Assembly: GCA_020250175.1 (NCBI GenBank)
Contig: JADCEN010000011.1
Location: 62,001 to 126,000, forward strand
Origin: Rhodobacter sp.
Lineage (GTDB): Bacteria > Pseudomonadota > Alphaproteobacteria > Rhodobacterales > Rhodobacteraceae
Direction of reading: 5' to 3'
DNA length: 64,000 bases
Below the pieces are notes generated by a model. It had not been told where the DNA came from. It did no database searches and worked only from the letters and a program-made list of their open reading frames with translations. Position numbers and translations under genes: made by a program. Of the stretch, positions 15,110-46,857 are shown piece by piece. Within the stretch, counting starts at the first letter, position 1, and each line of letters begins with the position of its first letter.

Positions 15110-15718
15110 ATGCGCAAGTTCACAGAGCCGCGGCTGGTGCTTGCCAGCCACAACGCCGGGAAGCTGGAAGAGATTGAAAGGCTTCTTCAGCCGTTTGGTG
15201 TCGATATTGTCTCTGTGGCGGCACTTGGGCTGCCCGAACCGGCAGAGACCGCGGACACTTTCATCGGCAATGCCCGGATCAAGGCACATGCCGCCGCGCG
15301 CGCCAGCGGGATGCCGGCCCTTGCCGATGACAGTGGCATTGAGGTCGAGGCCTTGGGCGGCGCGCCGGGTGTCTACACGGCCGATTGGGCAGAAACGCCG
15401 CAGGGGCGTGATTTCGACATGGCGATGCGCCGCACCTGGGATGCTGTTGAGGCGACCGGGGCGGGCCATCCACGGCGCGCGCGGTTCTGCTGTACCCTTG
15501 TCTTGGCGTGGCCAGACGGACAAGACATTGTATTTCAAGGGTTTGTGCAGGGTCGGCTGGTCTGGCCGCCACGCGGGACACAGGGCCATGGGTATGATCC
15601 GATGTTCCAGCCCGACGGACATTCCATCACCTTTGGCGAGATGGACCGCTGGGAGAAGAACCAGATCAGTCACCGGGCCAATGCATTCGGCCAGCTTGTG
15701 GCAGGTTGTTTCACATGA
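15110..15718 (+). CDS. rdgB: Non-canonical purine NTP pyrophosphatase (RdgB/HAM1)
   Basis: A 202-residue enzyme hydrolysing dITP, ITP and XTP to the monophosphates, keeping deaminated purines out of nucleic acids. It has the N-terminal LVLASHNAGKLEEI (substrate loop SHNAGK), ADDSGIEVEALGGAPG, and the C-terminal GHGYDPMFQP and SHRANAF motifs. A GGAGG precedes the ATG at 15110. The last codons contain a parS-like palindrome, and the stop overlaps the start of a ridA-family pseudogene (ATGA). Confidence 0.96.
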   Translation: MRKFTEPRLVLASHNAGKLEEIERLLQPFGVDIVSVAALGLPEPAETADTFIGNARIKAHAAARASGMPALADDSGIEVEALGGAPGVYTADWAETPQGRDFDMAMRRTWDAVEATGAGHPRRARFCCTLVLAWPDGQDIVFQGFVQGRLVWPPRGTQGHGYDPMFQPDGHSITFGEMDRWEKNQISHRANAFGQLVAGCFT

Positions 15719-15722
15719 AACA
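15707..15722. promoter_or_regulatory. parS-like site, one mismatch
   Basis: The 16-mer TGTTTCACATGAAACA differs at one central base from the palindromic parS consensus TGTTTCACGTGAAACA, which is present exactly at 19266. It straddles the rdgB stop and the ridA-family start codon, and the mismatch creates the ATG. It lies about 1.5 kb beyond the 3' end of parB. ParB binding is possible but weaker than at the perfect site; chance occurrence beside a partition locus seems unlikely. Confidence 0.5.
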
Positions 15723-16092: not shown

Positions 16093-17259
16093 ATGGTTCC
16101 GGGAAACGAAGCGGGCTTCGGGCTTTACATCCATTGGCCATTCTGCCAATCGAAATGCCCCTATTGCGATTTCAACAGCCATGTGGCCGGGTGGATCGAC
16201 CAGAGGCGATGGCTGCAGTCCTATCTTGCAGAGATTGACCGCGCCGGTCAGGAGACCGCCGGGCTTCGCCTGCGGTCGGTGTTTTTCGGGGGCGGGACCC
16301 CATCGCTGATGGACCCTGAGACGGTGTTCGCCATCCTTGACCGGATCAGGGCAACCTGGCCCGTGGCAAATGATTGGGAGGTGACGCTGGAGGCAAATCC
16401 GGGGTCTACGGAAGCGGGTAAGTTCCAGGCGTTCCGGGCTGCGGGGGTAAACCGGCTTTCAATGGGCGTTCAGGCGCTGAATGATGCAGACCTGAAGCGG
16501 CTTGGCCGTCTTCATACCTTGGCAGATGCGATGGCTGCCTTTGACATTGCCAGGGCTTGCTTTGATCGTGTCAGCTTCGACCTTATCTATGCACGGCAGG
16601 ATCAGACACCTGAAGACTGGGCGCAGGAGCTGTCGCGTGCGCTGGACATGGCCGTAGACCATCTTTCCCTGTATCAGCTGACGGTCGAGGATGGCACGGC
16701 TTTTGGTGACAGGTACGCAAGGGGCGGCCTAAGGGGGCTGCCGGATGAAGACCAGTCTGTTGCGCTGTACGAAATCACCCAGGAGCTTTGTGAAGACGCC
16801 GGACTTCCCGCCTACGAGGTTTCAAACCACGCCCGGGATGGCGCGCAATCGCAGCACAACCTGATCTATTGGCGGGGCGGCGACTATGCGGGAGTGGGGC
16901 CAGGTGCACATGGGCGTCTGACGCTGGGGGGGCACCGCTGGGCAACGGAAGCGTTGAGACCCCCCGCAGCCTGGCTAGACGCGGTTGAGAAGCGCGGAAC
17001 GGGAGAGCTTCCGAGGGATGAGATCGCGCCAGTTGACAGGGCGCGGGAATACATCCTGATGAGCCTGAGATTGAACGAAGGTCTGGATCTTGCACGGCTT
17101 CAGGCGATTTCGGGTCTTTCGCTGCCCCCGGCCGCAGTGACAGATCTTTGCTCCTTGAATTTGATCACGGTCGACGAGGGGCGGGTGCAGACGACGCGGC
17201 AAGGCCGTATGGTACTGAACGCCGTGATTCGCCGGCTTGCCGAGGGCCTGCAGCCCTAG
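16093..17259 (+). CDS. hemW: Radical SAM heme chaperone HemW
   Basis: A 388-residue radical-SAM protein. The iron-sulfur cluster cysteines are Cys18, Cys22 and Cys25 (CQSKCPYCDF), with the SAM-binding VFFGGGTPSLM and the C-terminal HemW domain (MSLRLNEGLDL). Family work shows HemW binds heme and delivers it to respiratory targets; it is often misannotated as coproporphyrinogen oxidase HemN. True HemN has an extra N-terminal segment with a different cysteine context, absent here. It starts 3 bases after the RidA frame and overlaps the convergent parB by 4 bases. Confidence 0.92.
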   Translation: MVPGNEAGFGLYIHWPFCQSKCPYCDFNSHVAGWIDQRRWLQSYLAEIDRAGQETAGLRLRSVFFGGGTPSLMDPETVFAILDRIRATWPVANDWEVTLEANPGSTEAGKFQAFRAAGVNRLSMGVQALNDADLKRLGRLHTLADAMAAFDIARACFDRVSFDLIYARQDQTPEDWAQELSRALDMAVDHLSLYQLTVEDGTAFGDRYARGGLRGLPDEDQSVALYEITQELCEDAGLPAYEVSNHARDGAQSQHNLIYWRGGDYAGVGPGAHGRLTLGGHRWATEALRPPAAWLDAVEKRGTGELPRDEIAPVDRAREYILMSLRLNEGLDLARLQAISGLSLPPAAVTDLCSLNLITVDEGRVQTTRQGRMVLNAVIRRLAEGLQP

Positions 17260-18167
17260 ACGGACCCGTCGCGAGGCAAAACGGACAGTCCACGGCAAAG
17301 CAGATCAAGGTCTTCAAGGCTGTTGTACCGGATCGACAGTATCCCCGCCCCGCCACCCGGTTCATGCGCGATCTTGACGGTCATGCGAAGATTTGCCGAC
17401 AGGTCAGCCTCAAGCGCGCGTGTATCCGCATCCTTTTCGAAGCTGTACGGCTTTGGTCGGCCTGGCTTTTCAACAGCCGCCGCCTGCTTCTTCGCCAAGT
17501 CTTCCGCCTGACGGACTGTCATCCCCTTTGCAATGATCATCCGAGCCAATTCTGCGGGATTGGCTGTGGTGATCAGCGCACGGGCATGACCGGCGGTCAG
17601 CTTGCCTTCGCGTATGTAGGTTTGCACTTCTTCAGGCAACTGCAGCAGACGGAGCAGATTGGCGATATGGCTGCGGCTTTTGGACAGCGCTTCGGCCATC
17701 TTTTCCTGCGTGTGGCCGAATCGATCCATCAGCTGGCGATAGGCAAGCGCCTCTTCAATGGCATTCAGGTCGGCGCGCTGGATATTCTCGATCAGCGCAA
17801 TCTCCAGAACCTCAGAGTCTGACAAGTCTTTGATTATGACGGGTAACTCATGAACCTTCGCCATCTGGGCGGCGCGCCAGCGGCGCTCGCCTGCGACAAT
17901 CTCGTACTCTTCTGTACCCCGCCTGCGAACAATCAGGGGCTGGATCACACCCTTCAAGCGGATCGAGGCCGCCAGGTCTTCCAGCGCATCAGAGGCAAAA
18001 TCACGGCGCGGCTGGTGGGGATTTGGGAAAAGGTGCTCGACCGGAACCATAATATCCACCCTCCGGGATGATATGGGGTTTCCCGCCACCTCTGTGGTTA
18101 CGCTGACGTCCGCCATAAGCGCAGACAACCCGCGCCCCAACCCTCGATGTTCGGTCTTCTTCTCCAT
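17256..18167 (-). CDS. parB: Chromosome partitioning protein ParB
   Basis: A 303-residue ParB. The N-terminal GLGRGLSALMAD is the usual ParA-interacting motif. The CTP-binding ParB box contains GERRWRAAQ (about residue 93) and IALIENIQRADLNAIEEA. A central helix-turn-helix (EALSKSRSHIANLLRLLQLP) contacts parS, and the C-terminal part dimerises. ParB loads at parS as a CTP-driven sliding clamp and positions the origin region. It is encoded 17 bases downstream of parA in the same operon, and candidate parS sites lie within 4 kb on both sides. Confidence 0.96.
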   Translation of the reverse strand: MEKKTEHRGLGRGLSALMADVSVTTEVAGNPISSRRVDIMVPVEHLFPNPHQPRRDFASDALEDLAASIRLKGVIQPLIVRRRGTEEYEIVAGERRWRAAQMAKVHELPVIIKDLSDSEVLEIALIENIQRADLNAIEEALAYRQLMDRFGHTQEKMAEALSKSRSHIANLLRLLQLPEEVQTYIREGKLTAGHARALITTANPAELARMIIAKGMTVRQAEDLAKKQAAAVEKPGRPKPYSFEKDADTRALEADLSANLRMTVKIAHEPGGGAGILSIRYNSLEDLDLLCRGLSVLPRDGSV

Positions 18168-18184
18168 CTGTTAGCCCCGCCCTG

Positions 18185-18994
18185 TTATGTCCGCTCCAGT
18201 CCATGCCGCAGGAGGAGCTCTTGCGCAAGAGCACGGTATGCTTCGCTTCCTTTGGAGGATGGGTCATACGACAGCACAGGAAGGGCGTAGGATGGTGCCT
18301 CGCTGACCCGGACATTGCGTGGGATCACGACCGGAAACACCAAATCGCCCAAAGTCGCCCGCACATCATTCTCAACCTGCTGGGCAAGGTTGTTGCGCCC
18401 GTCGAACATGGTCAGCAACACACCTTCAATGCGCAGGGCAGGGTTTGCACTCTGCCGGACCTCGCGGATTGTCAGCATCAGTTGTGACAGCCCCTCCAGG
18501 GCGAAAAACTCGCTCTGCAGCGGCACAAGAACCGAGTCTGCCGCAACCATTGCATTCACTGTCAGCAAGTTGAGAGACGGCGGACAGTCAATGATGATGA
18601 AATCAAAACGGTGTTCGTCCATCGAAACCTGGCGCAATGCGTCGCGCAAAAGGAAACTGCGCCGTTCGTTGGAAACAAGCTCCATATCCGTGGATGACAG
18701 ATCGGAATTCGCCGGAATAATGAACAGCCGGGGGATGGCTGTCGGTTGAATCGCCTCTGACGCAGGCATTTCTTCGATCAGCACATCATAGCTCGTGCGG
18801 TCGCGCCGGTTCCGCTCCACACCCAGGCCGGTAGATGCGTTGCCTTGCGGATCCAGATCCACCAGCAGACTCTTCGCGCCGCCTTCTGCCAGGCCCGCAG
18901 CCAGGTTGATTGCGGTCGTTGTCTTTCCGACGCCGCCCTTTTGATTGGCGATTGCGATTATTCTGGGGCCAGGCGGACGCGACGGATCAGACAC
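18185..18994 (-). CDS. parA: Chromosome partitioning ATPase ParA
   Basis: A 269-residue Walker-type ATPase with the deviant Walker A motif KGGVGKTTTAINLAAGLA (about residues 19-36), including the signature lysine, and the Walker B FIIIDCPPSLNLLT. ParA forms a DNA-bound gradient that pulls ParB-parS complexes toward the new pole. It overlaps rsmG by 8 bases and precedes parB by 17, in the conserved order mnmE-mnmG-rsmG-parA-parB. Confidence 0.97.
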   Translation of the reverse strand: MSDPSRPPGPRIIAIANQKGGVGKTTTAINLAAGLAEGGAKSLLVDLDPQGNASTGLGVERNRRDRTSYDVLIEEMPASEAIQPTAIPRLFIIPANSDLSSTDMELVSNERRSFLLRDALRQVSMDEHRFDFIIIDCPPSLNLLTVNAMVAADSVLVPLQSEFFALEGLSQLMLTIREVRQSANPALRIEGVLLTMFDGRNNLAQQVENDVRATLGDLVFPVVIPRNVRVSEAPSYALPVLSYDPSSKGSEAYRALAQELLLRHGLERT

Positions 18995-19592
18995 GGCGAA
19001 GGTCCTTCAGTTTGAGCACAGCCCCCGTCGGATCTGTTTTGCTGCCATGACTCTCAAGATCAAATGCCCAGACTTTGCGGGCTTCTGCAACTTCGGCGCA
19101 ATATTGGCCACCCTTGGGGAACAGGGCCATCCCGCCCGCCGCCATGTGGCGATCAGCGAAGGCACAGAGCCTGCTCAATGGGGCAAGCGCACGGGCGGAA
19201 ACGATATCCGCCTGCTGCGGCACAACGAGTTCAATACGCTCTGCGTGGATCACCATTGGAACGCTTGTTTCACGTGAAACAGTCGTCAGAAAGGCGGCCT
19301 TTCGCTGATCCGATTCAATTAGCACCATGTCAACGGCATCTGTCGTGTCCGCGGTCATCAGGGCAATGACAACCCCCGGAAAACCCGCGCCTGCCCCCAA
19401 ATCGACCCAAAGCTTGCGATACGGCGGAACAAGGCCCAAGAGTTGCGCACTGTCTTCGACATGGCGCGTCCAAACATCAGCTAGGCTTGCCGGGGAAACC
19501 AGATTAATCACAGAGTTCCATTTTCCAAGCAAGGCGACAAAAATCCGCAGCCTTTCGGCGGCCAAGTCACTGTAGGGCTGCATGTCAGTCAT
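18987..19592 (-). CDS. rsmG: 16S rRNA (guanine-N7) methyltransferase RsmG
   Basis: A 201-residue SAM-dependent methyltransferase that in the family modifies the conserved G527 of 16S rRNA; loss gives low-level streptomycin resistance. The SAM-binding motif is [16 protein letters not shown] (about residues 62-77). The gene carries an exact 16-bp parS palindrome inside its coding sequence, at the codons for VSRET, so the reading frame must accommodate the centromere site. It overlaps mnmG by 4 bases upstream and parA by 8 bases downstream. Confidence 0.96.
19266..19281. promoter_or_regulatory. parS centromere site, exact consensus
   Basis: TGTTTCACGTGAAACA is a perfect 16-bp palindrome and matches the widely conserved chromosomal parS consensus. 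It lies within rsmG, about 0.3 kb from the parA start. Its position inside a coding gene of the partition operon is typical. This is the strongest ParB loading site in the window. Confidence 0.92.
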
Positions 19593-21478
19593 GACGCCAC
19601 TTGCCGTGCCGCCTGACGCAATTTTGCAAGAAGCAGCGTCAGTGCCGCCGGTGTCATACCCTCGATCGCCGCCGCCTGCGCAAGCGAAGCCGGGCGGCTA
19701 CGCTCCAGCTTGAAGCGAAGCTCACCCGAAAGACCGCCCAAACTGCTGTAGGAAAAATCCTCGGGGATCTTGACGGCTTCATCACGGCGAATGGATGCAG
19801 CATCTTCGCTCTGTCGCTCCAGATACTGGGCGTAAAGCGCCTCTATCGCAATCTGCCGCTGTATCTCCGCAGGTTCGCCGGCAAGCTCCGGACACAACGC
19901 AGCGATCTGCTTCGGGTCGGTTTCAGGCAACGAAAGAAGCGAGAAGGCAGACCGGCGCATTCCGTCATGACTGACATGAATTCCCAGCGCTGCGATCGCC
20001 TGAGGAGTCAGCAGCTGTGACTCCAGCGCAACCCGTGTTCGTTCCAATGCTGCAAGCTTCCTGCGAAAGGCCGCAGCGCGGTCGTCACCAACACAGCCCA
20101 GGGCCAGCCCGAAGGGTGTCAGGCGCTGGTCCGCATTGTCAGCCCGAAGCGACAACCGGAATTCTGCTCTGGACGTGAACATTCGGTACGGTTCGCTTAC
20201 ACCCCTTGTCGTAAGATCATCCACCATAACGCCGATGTAACTGGATGTCCGGGAAAAAACCGCTTCATCCTGTCCGGCCGCACGACGCGCTGCGTTAAGT
20301 CCAGCAACCAGGCCCTGGGCCGCAGCCTCTTCATACCCGGTCGTTCCATTGATCTGGCCGGCAAAATACAGCCCCTCTACCTCACGGACCTCCAGCGTCC
20401 GGCGCAGGCAGCGCGGATCGAAGAAATCATACTCAATCGCATATCCCGGCTGCGTGATCACCGCTCTTTCAAGACCGGTGATCGTATGCACATAGTCCTC
20501 CTGCACGGCCAGGGGCAAAGACGTTGAAATGCCATTCGGATAAACCGTCGGATCATCCAAGCCCTCCGGCTCCAGAAAGATCTGATGCGACTGCTTATCG
20601 GCGAATCTCACAACCTTGTCTTCAAGCGAAGGGCAGTAGCGCGGGCCGACCCCCTCGATATGTCCGCCATACATCGCGGAAAGCCCAAGGTTGGACCGGA
20701 CAATCTCATGCGTTCGATCATTCGTCTGCGTGATGCCGCAGGTCACCTGCTTGACAAACGGTGCCTTGTGAAGAAACGAAAACATGGTCGGCTCTTCATC
20801 GCCGTCCTGAACGCCAACCCTGGACCAATCAATGCTGCGCCCATCCAGGCGTGGCGGGGTTCCGGTCTTCAGTCGGCCCGTCCCAAGCTGCAACTCCGCC
20901 AGACGCTCTGCCAAACGGACAGAGGGTTTCTCTCCCATCCGCCCGCCCGGCTTTGTCAGGTGGCCGATGTGGATCACGCCGCGCAGGAATGTCCCGGCCG
21001 TAAGCACAACCGTCCGACCGAACAGCGTCGTCCCATCGGCAAGACGAACCCCGCCCGCCCTGCGGCTTTCCATAAGCAGATCTGCAACCTCTCCTTCAAT
21101 CACCGTCAACCCGGGTCCTGCTCTGATCTCCCGCTGCATGGCGTCACGGTACAACCTTCGGTCGGCCTGTGCCCTTGGGCCCTGAACTGCCGGGCCCTTG
21201 CGACGGTTAAGCAAGCGGAACTGTATGGCGGCGAAATCCGCCACCCGGCCCATCACCCCGTCCAGGGCATCGATTTCCCGAACGAGATGACCCTTCCCAA
21301 GGCCACCGATGGCCGGGTTGCAAGACATTACACCAATGCCTGTCCAACTCAGGGTGATCAAGGCGGTCTGGGCACCCTGCCGCGCTGCCGCATGCGCGGC
21401 TTCACAGCCGGCGTGGCCGCCTCCAATCACAATGACATCATAATGTTTCACGTGAAACGCCCTCACTTGCCTATGCAA
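19589..21478 (-). CDS. mnmG: tRNA U34 5-carboxymethylaminomethyl synthesis enzyme MnmG (GidA)
   Basis: A 629-residue FAD protein. The dinucleotide-binding loop is [19 protein letters not shown] near residue 18, and [16 protein letters not shown] is the usual GidA signature. With MnmE it modifies the wobble uridine of several tRNAs. Possible starts are the ATG at 21478, which overlaps mnmE by 16 bases, and a GTG at 21451 ([12 protein letters not shown]), closer to the family start. A parS palindrome (21444-21459) covers the second start. Part of the mnmE-mnmG-rsmG-parAB operon. Confidence 0.95.
21444..21459. promoter_or_regulatory. parS site, 15 of 16 consensus bases
   Basis: TGTTTCACGTGAAACG matches the parS consensus at all but the last base. 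It lies at the mnmG 5' end, encoding FHVKH, 2.2 kb from the exact site at 19266. Together with the variant at 15707, three parS or parS-like sequences occur within 5.8 kb around parAB. Confidence 0.85.
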
Positions 21479-22774: not shown

Positions 22775-24046
22775 TCAGGTGTTCATGGACTCAAAGAACT
22801 CGGCATTTGACTTTGTCTGCTTCAATTTCGAAATCAGGAACTCGATCGCATCCGTCGTGCCCATCGGGTTCAGGATCCGCCGCAACACATATGTCTTCTG
22901 AAGGTCTGCCTTGTCCACCAGCAGATCTTCCTTCCGCGTTCCGGATTTCAGGATATCCATTGCCGGGAAAACCCGCTTGTCCGCTACCTTGCGGTCAAGC
23001 ACGATCTCGGAATTGCCGGTACCCTTGAATTCCTCAAAAATCACCTCATCCATCCGGCTGCCGGTGTCGATCAGCGCCGTGGCGATAATGGTCAGCGACC
23101 CGCCTTCTTCAATGTTGCGTGCCGCACCAAAGAACCGTTTTGGCCGCTGCAGCGCGTTGGCGTCCACCCCGCCGGTCAGCACCTTGCCAGACGATGGAAC
23201 CACGGTGTTGAAGGCCCGGCCAAGGCGGGTGATCGAATCGAGAAGAATGACAACATCGCGCTTGTGTTCGACCAGACGCTTGGCTTTCTCGATCACCATT
23301 TCAGCAACGGCAACATGGCGGGTCGCCGGTTCGTCAAAGGTCGAGGATACCACTTCTCCCTTCACCGACCGCTGCATGTCGGTCACTTCTTCCGGGCGCT
23401 CGTCAATCAGCAGAACAATCAGATAGCATTCCGGGTGATTTGTCGCGATCGAATGCGCGATGTTCTGCAACAGCACCGTCTTGCCGGTCCGCGGCGGCGC
23501 TACGATCAGCCCGCGCTGACCCTTTCCGATCGGTGCCACAAGATCGATGATGCGCGCCGACCGGTCGCGGATTGTCGGGTCCTCGACCTCCATCTTCAAC
23601 CGCTCATCGGGGTAAAGCGGCGTCAGGTTGTCGAAATGCACCTTGTGCCGCGCCTTTTCCGGATCATCGAAATTGATCCGGGTGACCTTCGTCATGCAGA
23701 AATAGCGCTCGGTCTCCCGCGGTGCGGCGATGTCGCCTTCAATCGTATCGCCCGTCCGCAGCGAGAACTGCCGCAGGATGTCGGGCGAGACATAAATGTC
23801 ATCCGGCCCCGGCAGATAATTCGCCTCCTTCGAACGCAGAAATCCAAATCCGTCCTGCAGGACTTCCAGAACACCGTCCCCGCCAATTTCCCAGCCTTCC
23901 TCGGCGTGCTCCTTCAGGATCGAGAACATCATCTCGCCCTTCCGCATCGAGGGCGCATTCTCAATCTCCCATTCCTCCGCCATCGACAACAGGTCGGCCG
24001 GGGTCTTTGTCTTGAGGTCGGACAGGTTCAGTCGGTCAGCGGTCAT
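22775..24046 (-). CDS. rho: Transcription termination factor Rho
   Basis: A 423-residue hexameric RNA helicase. An N-terminal RNA-binding domain (about 50-125, [22 protein letters not shown]) is followed by the ATPase with Walker [12 protein letters not shown] (about 177) and Walker [16 protein letters not shown]. The length is normal. The start is the ATG at 24046 ([15 protein letters not shown]); the open frame before it lacks family sequence. First gene of the rho-mnmE-mnmG-rsmG-parAB block. A 120-base gap to the hemJ stop may hold its promoter. Confidence 0.96.
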
Positions 24047-24166: not shown

Positions 24167-24616
24167 TCAGAACCTGACGATGACCGCCAGCACGATCACC
24201 ACCATCAACAGGGTGGGAACCTCGTTCATCATCCGGTAATGACGACCGGTCAATCTGTTCCGGCCTGCCGAAAAATCCTTGCGTCTGGCACCAAGCCAAT
24301 GATGGAACCATGTCATGCCGAGAACAGACACAGCTTTGGCCCAGGGCCACGCTTCCGACCAGTCAATGATCCCCGGCGTCATCACCAAGGCAAGCCCGAA
24401 CAGCCAGGCGGCAATGGCCGCAGGTCCCATGATCACCCGGTAGAGCTTCACCTCCATGATCTGGAACAGCGCATCCATTTCCTGCCCAAGTGCCGCCTTC
24501 TCGGCGTGGTACACAAACAGCCGTGGCAAATAGAACAGCCCCGCCATCCAGGCGATGACAGCCATCACGTGGAACGCCTTCACCCATGGATAAACCTCTG
24601 CAAGAAAATCGCCCAT
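24167..24616 (-). CDS. hemJ: Protoporphyrinogen oxidase HemJ
   Basis: A 149-residue four-helix membrane protein that, in the family, oxidises protoporphyrinogen IX to protoporphyrin IX for heme. It shows WVKAFHVMAVIAWMAGLFYLPRL at the N terminus, with the conserved histidine in FHV, and later FHHWLGARRKDF and RMMNEVPTLLMV. The start is the ATG at 24616 (MGDFLAEVYPWVKAFH), with GGAG about 10 bases upstream; the in-frame ATG at 24664 lacks a ribosome site. In many alphaproteobacteria hemE and hemC adjoin this region, but here the DnaA-box region follows directly. Confidence 0.9.
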   Translation of the reverse strand: MGDFLAEVYPWVKAFHVMAVIAWMAGLFYLPRLFVYHAEKAALGQEMDALFQIMEVKLYRVIMGPAAIAAWLFGLALVMTPGIIDWSEAWPWAKAVSVLGMTWFHHWLGARRKDFSAGRNRLTGRHYRMMNEVPTLLMVVIVLAVIVRF

Positions 24617-25020
24617 CGCCCCTGTCTCCGGTGCTTTGTCTTCTTCTATCCGGAAAAGAGTCATGAAGGGAATGATGCAGTAGGGCTATCGGATAACAGG
24701 ATTGTCAAAGTTGCCCATTGCCTTGTCCACAAGAAGCAGTCTGTGGAAAAAAGTGGGAAGAACAGGAAATCCGGTCAGATGATCTGAAAATACTCTATGT
24801 CATCAATGGCATGTACATTACTCACGACAGGCTTGCCTGTGGGCGGATTTGCCGTAGCCTGAACTGATCCAGGGACTCCGGCCGCACCGTTGATCGGTTA
24901 TGCACCCGTGGATAACCAGGTGCGGTCGGTGCTGCTGGGTCGTGGCGCGGTCGAAAACCCCGCAACCGGGCCAACCATCCCTTGCGCGACGGGCAGGAAC
25001 ATATCACGATTATCCACATG
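24617..25020. other. Probable chromosomal replication origin (oriC) between hemJ and maf
   Basis: This 400-base stretch has no gene. DnaA-box-like sites: TTGTCCACA (24723-24731), TGTGGAAAA (24742-24750), CGTGGATAA (24907-24915), each one base from TTATCCACA or its complement, and an exact TTATCCACA (25010-25018). An AT-richer stretch from about 24781 to 24825 stands out against the GC-rich surroundings and could be the unwinding element. A 13-base palindrome lies at 24775-24787, and one GANTC methylation site at 24874. Flanking genes (rho-mnmE-mnmG-rsmG-parAB with parS, and maf-aroE-coaE-dnaQ) match origin neighbourhoods of alphaproteobacteria. A GC-skew test would confirm it. Confidence 0.72.
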
Positions 25021-25635
25021 GTGGCACCGTCCCGACAGAGCAGAGATATCGTGCTGGCGTCCGCGTCCCAAACGCGCGGGCACATGCTGCGCGCCGCCGG
25101 GCTGGCCATTTCCGTCATGGCGCCCCGGATTGATGAAGAAGCCGTGCGTTTGTCGATGTCGGTCGCGGGTGCCAGCCCAAGGGACATCGTCGATGCGCTG
25201 GCCGAAGCCAAGGCGCGCAAGATTGCCGGCCGGTTTCCTGACGCCATTGTCATCGGATGTGACCAGGTGCTGGACTTTGCCGGTCAGGCCTGGGCCAAGG
25301 CGGAAACCGCTGATGCAGCGCGGGCACAGTTACAGGCGCTTCGCGGCCAGACTCACCTGCTTCACTCCGCCGCCGTGATATATGATGGGGGCAAGCCGGT
25401 TTGGCGGCAGGTCGGGAAGGCACGTATGACGATGAGGATGTTCTCGGACGCATTCCTTGACGACTATCTTGCGCGCAACTGGGATGCTGCGCGTCACAGT
25501 GTCGGAACCTACCGTGTTGAAGACGAAGGCATCAGGCTGTTCTCGCAGATAGAGGGCGATCATTTCACCGTGCTGGGGTTGCCTTTGCTGCCCGTTCTGA
25601 ACCATCTTTCCGACTGCGGCATCCTATCAGCATGA
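25018..25635 (+). CDS. maf: Maf family nucleotide pyrophosphatase
   Basis: A 205-residue protein with [18 protein letters not shown] at the N terminus (family form LASxSxxR), then GCDQVLDF and [13 protein letters not shown]. Maf proteins hydrolyse modified or canonical nucleoside triphosphates; some affect septation. The ATG at 25018 ([15 protein letters not shown]) is preferred over upstream codons by similarity. The consensus DnaA box ends on the A of this ATG, so DnaA binding could influence expression. It overlaps aroE by 4 bases and opens the maf-aroE-coaE-dnaQ operon. Confidence 0.92.
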
Positions 25636-26471
25636 CCGAAGCACCGCGCATCCCTCTGGCCGGTGTTATCGGCTCTCCGGTCGCACACAGCCGCTCGCCG
25701 GCATTGCATGGCTATTGGCTGCGGCGCTACGGGATCAAGGGGTTCTACATCCCGATGGATGTGGGACAGGCCGACCTGAAAGACGCCTTGGCAGCCTTGC
25801 CCAAGCTGGGCTTTGTCGGCTTGAATGTGACCATTCCCCACAAGGAAACCATCCTGTCCCTGGCAGATATCGTCACGGATCGCGCCGCTCTGATCGGTGC
25901 TGCCAATACGCTGATTTTCCGCAAGGATGGCAAGGTTTTTGCGGATAACACCGATGGCTCCGGCTTTATCGCCAACCTTCGCCAACACGCCCCCGGATGG
26001 GCACCGGCCGCAGGCCCCGCCGTGGTCTTCGGGGCCGGAGGTGCGGCCAGGGCCATTGTCGCGGCGCTGATCGAGGTTGGCGTGCCGGAAATCCGGCTGG
26101 CCAACCGGACCCGGGCCCGCGCAGAGGCGCTGCGATCCGACTTCGGCGCGAAGATTCATGTGCATGAATGGGTCCAGGCCGGCGTGCTTCTGGAAGATGC
26201 CACGACGGTTGTAAACACCACAGCGCTTGGAATGACCGGCAAGCCCGAATTCAAGGTACCGTTGGCCTCGCTCAATCCGAAGGCTCTGGTGACGGATCTG
26301 GTTTACACCCCCCTGCGCACCCCCTTGCTCGATCAGGCAGAGCAGGCCGGATGCACGGTGGTCGACGGTCTGGGAATGCTTCTTCACCAGGCGGCCCCGG
26401 GCTTTGAAAGGTGGTTCGGAACCCGGCCTGATGTCGATGCGGCAACGCGGGCCGCCGTCCTTTCCTCATGA
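25632..26471 (+). CDS. aroE: Shikimate dehydrogenase
   Basis: A 279-residue NADPH enzyme of the shikimate pathway (3-dehydroshikimate to shikimate). Markers are [17 protein letters not shown], the catalytic lysine in [16 protein letters not shown], the NADP loop [10 protein letters not shown] and the following ANRTRARAE, which favours NADPH. It overlaps maf by ATGA and coaE by ATGA. Confidence 0.96.
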
Positions 26472-27061
26472 CCGCGTTTCGCCTCGGGCTGACCGGCTCC
26501 ATCGGCATGGGCAAGTCCACCACTGCCACCTTCTTCGCGGCCGAAGGCGTGCCGGTCTGGGATGCCGATCAGGCGGTGCACCGGCTTTATGCCAAAGGTG
26601 GCGCGGCGGTTGCCCCGCTTGCAGCCCTGTTGCCGCAAGCCGAAGTTCAGGGGGCCATCTGCCGCGAGGAGCTACGCCGCGCAATTGCACAGGATAGCGG
26701 CGCATTGCCCAGAATCGAGGCCGTGGTGCATCCGCTCGTGGTTGCGGACCGTGCCCGCTTCGTTGCCGAAACCCGCGCGGATCTCCTGCTTCTGGATATC
26801 CCGCTTCTGTTCGAGACCGGCGCAGATGCCAGCGTGGATGCCTCCCTTGTCGTCACCGCGCCCCCGGCGCTTCAGCGCGCCCGGGTCATGGCCCGGCCCG
26901 GCATGACAGAGGCGCTGTTCCAGACCCTGCTTGCCAAGCAAGTGCCCGACAGGGAAAAGCGGGCGCGGGCCACCCATCTGATAGAAACACTCAGCCTGTC
27001 CTCGGTCCGGGCCTGCGTGCAGGCCCTGATCCGGTACATCCGGGAAACCCATCATGCGTGA
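26468..27061 (+). CDS. coaE: Dephospho-CoA kinase
   Basis: A 197-residue P-loop kinase completing CoA synthesis by phosphorylating the 3' hydroxyl of dephospho-CoA. It has the P-loop [13 protein letters not shown] (about residues 7-19), [11 protein letters not shown], and the substrate segment [14 protein letters not shown]. It overlaps aroE by 4 bases and dnaQ by 8 bases. Confidence 0.95.
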
Positions 27062-27746
27062 GATTGTTCTGGACACCGAAACCACGGGATTGGAACCGGC
27101 CGAAGGGCATCGGATCGTGGAGATCGGCGCGGTGGAGCTGTTCAATCATGTTCCGACCGGCCGCACCTTTCACCACTATATCAACCCGCTGCGCCCGATG
27201 CCGAAGGAAGCCTTCGAAGTTCATGGCCTGGGCGATGATTTCCTGCGGGACAAGCCGGTGTTCAAGGTGGTGGCACAGGCGTTCCTCGACTTCATCGAAG
27301 ACGCCACCCTGGTGATTCACAACGCCGCCTTCGACATGAAGTTCCTGAACGCCGAGCTGGGCTGGGCCGGGCTTCCAACCCTGGCGGCGGATCGGGCGGT
27401 TGATACCCTTATGATCGCACGCCAAAGGTTTCCGGGTTCGCCCGCCTCTCTCGATGCGCTTTGCCGGCGCTTTGGCGTGGACAACTCCGCGCGCGACACT
27501 CACGGCGCGCTGCTGGACAGCAGGATCCTTGCCGAGGTCTATCTTGAACTGATCGGCGGCAGGCAGCCCGATCTGGTGCTTTCCGGGCCGGTCGGCGAAA
27601 GACCGGGCACGGTCACGGTCGCCGACTGGCGGCCAGGACCGCGCCAGCGACCGCTTTCGCCACGTATCACCCAGACCGAAGCCGCCGCCCATGCCGCCTT
27701 TGTGGCAGCTTTGGGTGCCAATGCCCTGTGGTCAAGGCGGGTCTGA
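27054..27746 (+). CDS. dnaQ: DNA polymerase III epsilon subunit (proofreading exonuclease)
   Basis: A 230-residue DEDDh exonuclease. Exo I is IVLDTETTG with Asp7 and Glu9; Exo II is [14 protein letters not shown]; Exo III is [15 protein letters not shown]. The short C-terminal extension should bind the alpha subunit. Last gene of the maf-aroE-coaE-dnaQ run. Its stop lies 4 bases from the convergent secB stop. Confidence 0.95.
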
Positions 27747-27749
27747 CCC

Positions 27750-28253
27750 TCACGACTGGGCAACAGGCGGCTTTTTTGCCTCGGCGCGGCGGGCAAGCTC
27801 CTGACGGTACAGCGCCATGTAATCCACCGTGTCAACGTTCAGCGCCGGGAAGCCGCCGTCGCGGGTCACGTCCGAGATGATGCGCCGAACGAAGGGAAAC
27901 AGCATCCGCGGACATTCGATCAGCAGGAAGGGATGAAGCTGGTCCCCCGGCACGCCCTCGACCAGGAAGATACCGGCATATTCCAGTTCCATCAGAAACA
28001 GGGTGTCGCCCGTCGCCTTGTTCTTCGATGTGACACGAAACTTGTTGATCACCTCGTACTGGTTTGCCTGCGGGCGTGTGCGGGCATCCAGACTGACCTG
28101 AACCGCGATGTCGGGCTGAATCTCGCCGCCCAACAGGCCCTTCTGCGCGATGGTGTTCTCAAAGGACAGATCGCGGATAAACTGCGCCAGAACCTGCATC
28201 CGGATCTGGGCGGGGGCCTCCGGGGCGGCGCTGCCATTTGCTTCAGTCATCAA
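27750..28253 (-). CDS. secB: Protein-export chaperone SecB
   Basis: A 167-residue tetrameric cytosolic chaperone that delivers unfolded preproteins to SecA. Typical segments are IRDLSFENTIAQKG near the N terminus, the central IFLVEGVP, and PRMLFPFVRRIISDVTRDGGFPAL. The start is the ATG at 28253 (or the next ATG, MMTEAN). It lies 60 bases downstream of fxsA on the same strand. Confidence 0.95.
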   Translation of the reverse strand: MMTEANGSAAPEAPAQIRMQVLAQFIRDLSFENTIAQKGLLGGEIQPDIAVQVSLDARTRPQANQYEVINKFRVTSKNKATGDTLFLMELEYAGIFLVEGVPGDQLHPFLLIECPRMLFPFVRRIISDVTRDGGFPALNVDTVDYMALYRQELARRAEAKKPPVAQS

Positions 28254-46810: not shown

Positions 46811-46857
46811 CGCCACGATAACTTCAGCGGACTTCCGCAGGCCTGACGAATTAAATC

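Follow-up and report, generated by a model that had tools for sequence, protein, structure and literature searches.

According to the available portion of the Ketogulonicigenium vulgare Hbe602 genome paper, which refers to DoriC, the Rhodobacteraceae share a conserved oriC position adjacent to maf (PMC4793288). For Caulobacter crescentus, the accessible text of a further source places the origin, Cori, between hemE and COG1806 (PMC1914354). In addition, 101 Rhodobacteraceae origins have been predicted with Ori-Finder in finished genomes (PMC6699656). The criteria named in the accessible part of that survey, i.e. DnaA boxes, skew, a local GC minimum and proximity to parAB, are similar to those used herein, with the difference that the present genome is a draft and that the skew criterion was applied to relatives only.

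The locus considered here lies within a 64,000 nt stretch of DNA from Rhodobacter sp., the whole of which is referred to as the window; its features are collected in Table 1. The best explanation of the hemJ–maf gap is that it is, very probably, the chromosomal, DnaA-type oriC of a Rhodobacteraceae bacterium. An intergenic cluster of DnaA boxes, an easily melted element and parAB with parS nearby, by which DnaA-dependent origins are recognised, are all present, as is a box-bearing gap directly upstream of maf, the hallmark of the maf-linked origin of this family. At the level of description rather than of sequences, there is no difference of kind from the origin outlined in the available text of PMC4793288, both being intergenic and next to maf. 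A maf-side location is already known at family level, and the predicted origin of Rhodobacter sp. is thus real but ordinary, occupying the usual site for the family. With a probable origin fixed, this genome gains a point to which the draft assembly, and estimates of growth rate based on read depth, can be anchored.

Table 1. Predicted origin and surrounding features in the 64 kb window (positions counted from the first base of the window)
Feature	Position	Strand	Remarks
Predicted oriC	24617..25017	.	Intergenic, between the start codons of hemJ and maf
Exact DnaA box TTATCCACA	25010..25018	+	Ends on the first base of the probable maf start codon
One-mismatch DnaA box TTGTCCACA	24723..24731	+	Exact in relative L001
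One-mismatch DnaA box TTTTCCACA	24742..24750	-	Inverted relative to box 24723
One-mismatch DnaA box TTATCCACG	24907..24915	-	Letters identical in L001–L003
Probable unwinding element	24747..24821	.	Covers the weakest 60-mer and 40-mer of the window
Weak IHF-like site	24801..24813	+	Weak match
hemJ (TIGR00701)	24167..24616	-	NCBIfam match; left flank of the origin
maf	25018..25635	+	NCBIfam match, weaker than the curated cut-offs of the two top-scoring models; right flank
rho	22775..24046	-	NCBIfam match; start at an internal ATG, approximate
aroE (+), coaE (+), dnaQ (+), secB (-)	25632..28253		Right-hand cluster
parB (TIGR00180) and parA	17256..18994	-	parB by family match; parA by reading the translation
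Exact parS-type palindrome	19266..19281	.	Inside rsmG
One-mismatch parS-type copy	21444..21459		Near the mnmG start
One-mismatch parS-type copy	15707..15722		At the end of ORF 15110–15718

A first-pass annotation had proposed a probable origin here, in a gene-free gap holding one exact and three one-mismatch DnaA boxes in both orientations. A recount of the boxes confirms the latter, and the origin itself is supported by the conserved place and boxes, the weak duplex, a strand-asymmetry switch in three relatives and the finding that boxes do not cluster at the genome's own dnaA. Over the window as a whole, boxes with at most one mismatch are not in excess, as six are found compared with 4.44 expected, and 28 of 100 shuffles reach six. 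Four of these six are, however, packed into 296 bp, and the signal is this crowding of boxes in the gap, not their number over the window. Across the entire genome (3,893,215 bases) there are seven exact boxes and 246 with at most one mismatch, of which the first 100, up to contig C23, were inspected singly. At the mean genome rate, which is uniform rather than adjusted to local AT content, four or more boxes in a single 407 bp tile would be expected approximately 1.7 × 10−4 times per genome. Dinucleotide shuffles of the gap, which retain local composition, hold a mean of 0.109 boxes, with none of 2000 reaching four. Boxes 24723 and 24742 are separated by 19 bp from start to start, and the same +/- spacing was counted ten times in 81 sequences (the window and 80 relatives). 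The most likely start codon of maf is the ATG at 25018–25020, and as a result the exact box overlaps it by one base. This box is located where the ribosome-binding site of maf would be expected, and DnaA could affect maf expression.

To place the gap in a wider context, a hemJ query was run against named public genomes, and the 80 best of its 264 matches were retained (L001–L080); being chosen by hemJ, this set cannot show how often the origin occurs without that gene. The three nearest relatives amongst these best 80 are metagenome assemblies of Rhodobacter sp. Divergent, adjacent maf and hemJ genes, with rho beyond hemJ, are found in every one of the 80 loci, and the hemJ–maf distance, measured between protein matches, ranges from 355 to 490 bases. 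Gaps delimited in this way, and therefore including some coding bases, total 33,700 bases; exact boxes number 39 in them and boxes allowing up to one mismatch 240, compared with 6 and 170, respectively, in the 935,043 bases forming the rest of the loci. The box rate in the gaps is thus about 180-fold (exact) and 39-fold (at most one mismatch) that of the surroundings. Dinucleotide shuffles of the 80 gaps yield only 0.35 exact and 9.2 one-mismatch-or-better boxes, and so the excess is not caused by AT content. An exact box occurs in 25 of the 80 gaps, and at least three boxes occur in 50. When the window is included, 79 of 81 gaps carry a box with at most one mismatch, and no such box is found in the other two. 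Against this, the window has only one exact box amongst its four, and 55 of the 81 gaps have none. L001–L003 also have boxes 24723 and 25010, each with no more than one mismatch. At the aligned place across all 81 gaps, a box of this quality is seen in 24 sequences for 24723, 28 for 24742, 6 for 24907 and 33 for 25010, in an alignment that is itself gappy, box 24742 standing opposite an alignment gap in 34 of the 81 rows. These counts indicate that box content is shared across the family, and box position less so.

With regard to duplex stability, the first-pass annotation had pointed to an AT-richer stretch, and this is borne out: the gap has a GC content of 53.6 % and contains both the least stable 40-mer (starting at 24782) and the least stable 60-mer (starting at 24747) of the 64 kb window, as judged by nearest-neighbour energy. 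For 100-mers, by the same measure, a place at 46849 is slightly weaker than the gap. In the relatives, the least stable 40-mer of the fetched locus falls inside the gap, taken with 40 coding bases on each side, in 77 of 80. Its position is near the hemJ start in 41 of 80 and approximately 120–200 bases from it in 39, the window belonging to the latter class. No site within one mismatch of the IHF consensus WATCAANNNNTTR is found in the window, where only the weak match listed in Table 1 occurs. Exact WATCAANNNNTTR sites are nonetheless present in 13 of the 81 gaps, versus 0.8 expected, and 11 of these 13 lie at a distance of 170–220 bases from hemJ; a bend of the IHF type in the central part of the origin is therefore possible. 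The CtrA site TTAA-N7-TTAA is absent from the window gap and appears in 9 of 81 gaps, a raw count given with no background rate. Sites in the window thus lend no support to CtrA control as in Caulobacter.

From the location, box cluster, weak duplex and conservation of the region demonstrated here, a course of events may be proposed, with DnaA binding, opening, a bidirectional start and the actions of ParB and IHF all modelled on well-studied origins. DnaA-ATP would most likely bind the four boxes, along with weaker ones, and the central part of the origin may be bent by IHF or a protein like it. Melting would then occur in the weak duplex next to the boxes, for which 24747–24821 is the most likely candidate in the window, again by analogy with origins that have been studied; the helicase would be loaded and forks would leave both ways. 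Subsequently, ParB would act at the parS sites, which are 3–9 kb distant, and move the new origins apart.

The genes around the gap agree with the earlier reading of a rho–mnmE–mnmG–rsmG–parAB neighbourhood with parS. NCBIfam matches were obtained for AroE, CoaE, SecB, DnaQ, MnmE, ParB, HemJ and Rho. ParA and RsmG match no family at E 1e-30, and their names, like that of MnmG, rest on reading the translations. On the left flank, 24616 is the most probable start of hemJ, since residue 17 is where many alignments begin. All three parS-type sites, found with a palindrome consensus that we take to be that of parS, lie within coding regions or at their ends (presumably rsmG and mnmG in two cases), and none lies in the parAB genes themselves.

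Strand asymmetry within the genome itself shows no skew minimum at the locus in its 132,087-base contig (C3). In 10 kb blocks, values to the left are +0.019 and +0.029, the block holding the locus gives −0.062, and those to the right are −0.031, −0.044, −0.023 and +0.015. As the assembly is a draft of 86 contigs, and that of the window is only of the size stated, this local skew probably reflects gene content. Three relatives assembled as one contig (G085, G100 and G079) were sampled at 20 stretches of 20 kb each, scoring GC skew and the octamer GGGNAGGG, which we take to be the FtsK motif of Escherichia coli. For G085, GC skew is positive in 2 of 10 stretches of the left arm and 9 of 10 of the right, with the octamer occurring 1 time forward and 29 reverse on the left, and 22 and 4 times, respectively, on the right. 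The corresponding values for G100 are 2 of 9 and 0/22 (left), and 6 of 10 and 29/10 (right); those for G079 are 4 of 10 and 13/35 (left), and 7 of 9 and 32/6 (right), the counts of these two genomes including one far-end stretch each that is apparently beyond the terminus. Thus, in all three relatives the asymmetry switches near the hemJ locus, if only at coarse resolution. The octamer of G085 changes its prevailing direction only between about +132 and +792 kb, although the GC skew does so between −88 and +132 kb, and in G100 the skew is noisy to about +700 kb, being still negative at +178, +528 and +703 kb.

That the gap separates divergent genes, and that its exact box adjoins maf at the probable start codon, would also be in keeping with a DnaA-regulated promoter region of hemJ and maf, or with a DnaA-titration site, replication starting elsewhere. 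Against this, boxes are retained in all eight genomes inspected in which rho faces maf without hemJ, so that they do not follow hemJ, although they may follow maf; the switch in strand asymmetry near the locus in three relatives also speaks for an origin, and such a purely regulatory role is very unlikely. Origins linked to dnaA are common in bacteria, and in four of the seven one-contig relatives searched the numbering of the record begins at dnaA, which would favour an origin beside that gene with the hemJ–maf region as secondary. The genome's own dnaA, which is on contig C60, has a single one-mismatch box in 4.3 kb, however, and the dnaA loci of the seven relatives have zero or one box with at most one mismatch each. 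Both sides of dnaA are covered by this count in the present genome, G079, G085 and G100, and the bases upstream of dnaA fall outside it for G003, G116, G038 and G048, whose records start at that gene. Moreover, dnaA and hemJ of G085 are about 0.5 Mb apart, and neither the sampled skew nor the octamer switches at dnaA. A dnaA-linked origin was accordingly rejected as extremely improbable, given at most one box at each of eight dnaA loci, four of them considered without upstream bases. Finally, whilst the number of boxes over the whole window is unremarkable, a merely accidental grouping of box-like words in a gap richer in AT can hardly be entertained, as it is contradicted by the failure of all 2000 shuffles to reach four boxes and by the conservation seen in the relatives, whose 80 gaps hold 240 boxes versus 9.2 when shuffled.

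Taking the hemJ–maf gap as the predicted origin, its gene order was held by the first-pass annotation to depart from that of Caulobacter, and this proves correct, with hemE located away from the window on contig C8 and no match to PF03618 found anywhere in the genome; the gap also differs in possessing no TTAA-N7-TTAA site. The likeness to Cori, as far as the accessible description of the latter extends, is closer in G085, G047 and G004, where a PF03618 gene, hemE, hemJ and rho surround the gap, with maf opposite. The PF03618 gene is one that we take to be of the COG1806 type. The non-Caulobacter order is the usual family arrangement, and no peculiarity of the Rhodobacter sp. genome, because an oriC beside maf is reported, in the available text, as conserved in Rhodobacteraceae (PMC4793288).

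Comparison by eye of 120 family genomes places hemE directly beside hemJ in six (G004, G016, G047, G072, G079 and G085). Of 12 genomes searched for PF03618, the three mentioned above are positive, each having the gene next to hemE at the origin locus. For G079 and G016, hemE and maf face each other without a PF03618 gene. Only two one-mismatch boxes occur in the hemE–COG1806 gap of G085, and only one near hemE in G072. The latter has no maf match within the 14 kb taken, and its right side is therefore rearranged or diverged. At class level, a hemE match lies within about 1.5 kb in 26 of 30 hemJ loci (L082–L111), a proportion that may be biased, as these are the best-scoring 30 of 95 genomes with a match, taken with at most ~1.5 kb per side.

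Within the family sample, by row count, the HemJ match scores below 70 bits in 22 of 120 genomes and is missing from three. In five of the 22 (L189–L193), the surroundings of the divergent hemJ, out to about 7 kb, contain no matched neighbour from the origin cluster. It seems that hemJ has been lost from the origin in the weak-HemJ genomes, perhaps with replacement by a divergent gene. A search for maf in eight of the 22 reveals rho facing maf in every case, across a gap with one to five boxes. Together with the hemE and PF03618 variants, these arrangements indicate that the origin keeps its place beside maf whilst the presence there of the COG1806-type gene, hemE and hemJ varies. Neighbours may even have been shed successively within this one family, with the COG1806-type gene going first, then hemE, then hemJ, such that rho is left facing the origin. 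We view this scheme as evenly balanced between acceptance and doubt, the order of losses being read from present-day arrangements and not from a tree. If it holds, linkage of heme genes to the origin would be unnecessary for origin function or timing. The varied gene content around one conserved origin provides a natural test of the importance of heme genes beside the origin for replication. Stepwise loss of hemE and hemJ at the origin is undescribed in the literature searched, which comprised titles and the starts of abstracts, with subscription papers mostly outside it.

Two further observations concern hemE itself. G100 carries two full-length copies that exceed the family cut-off (G100:C1:1885234 and 2597775), neither of which is beside hemJ. 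The hemE match of G008 (G008:C3:2394986-2395992) consists of two pieces that overlap and lie in different frames, possibly reflecting a sequencing error or a broken gene.
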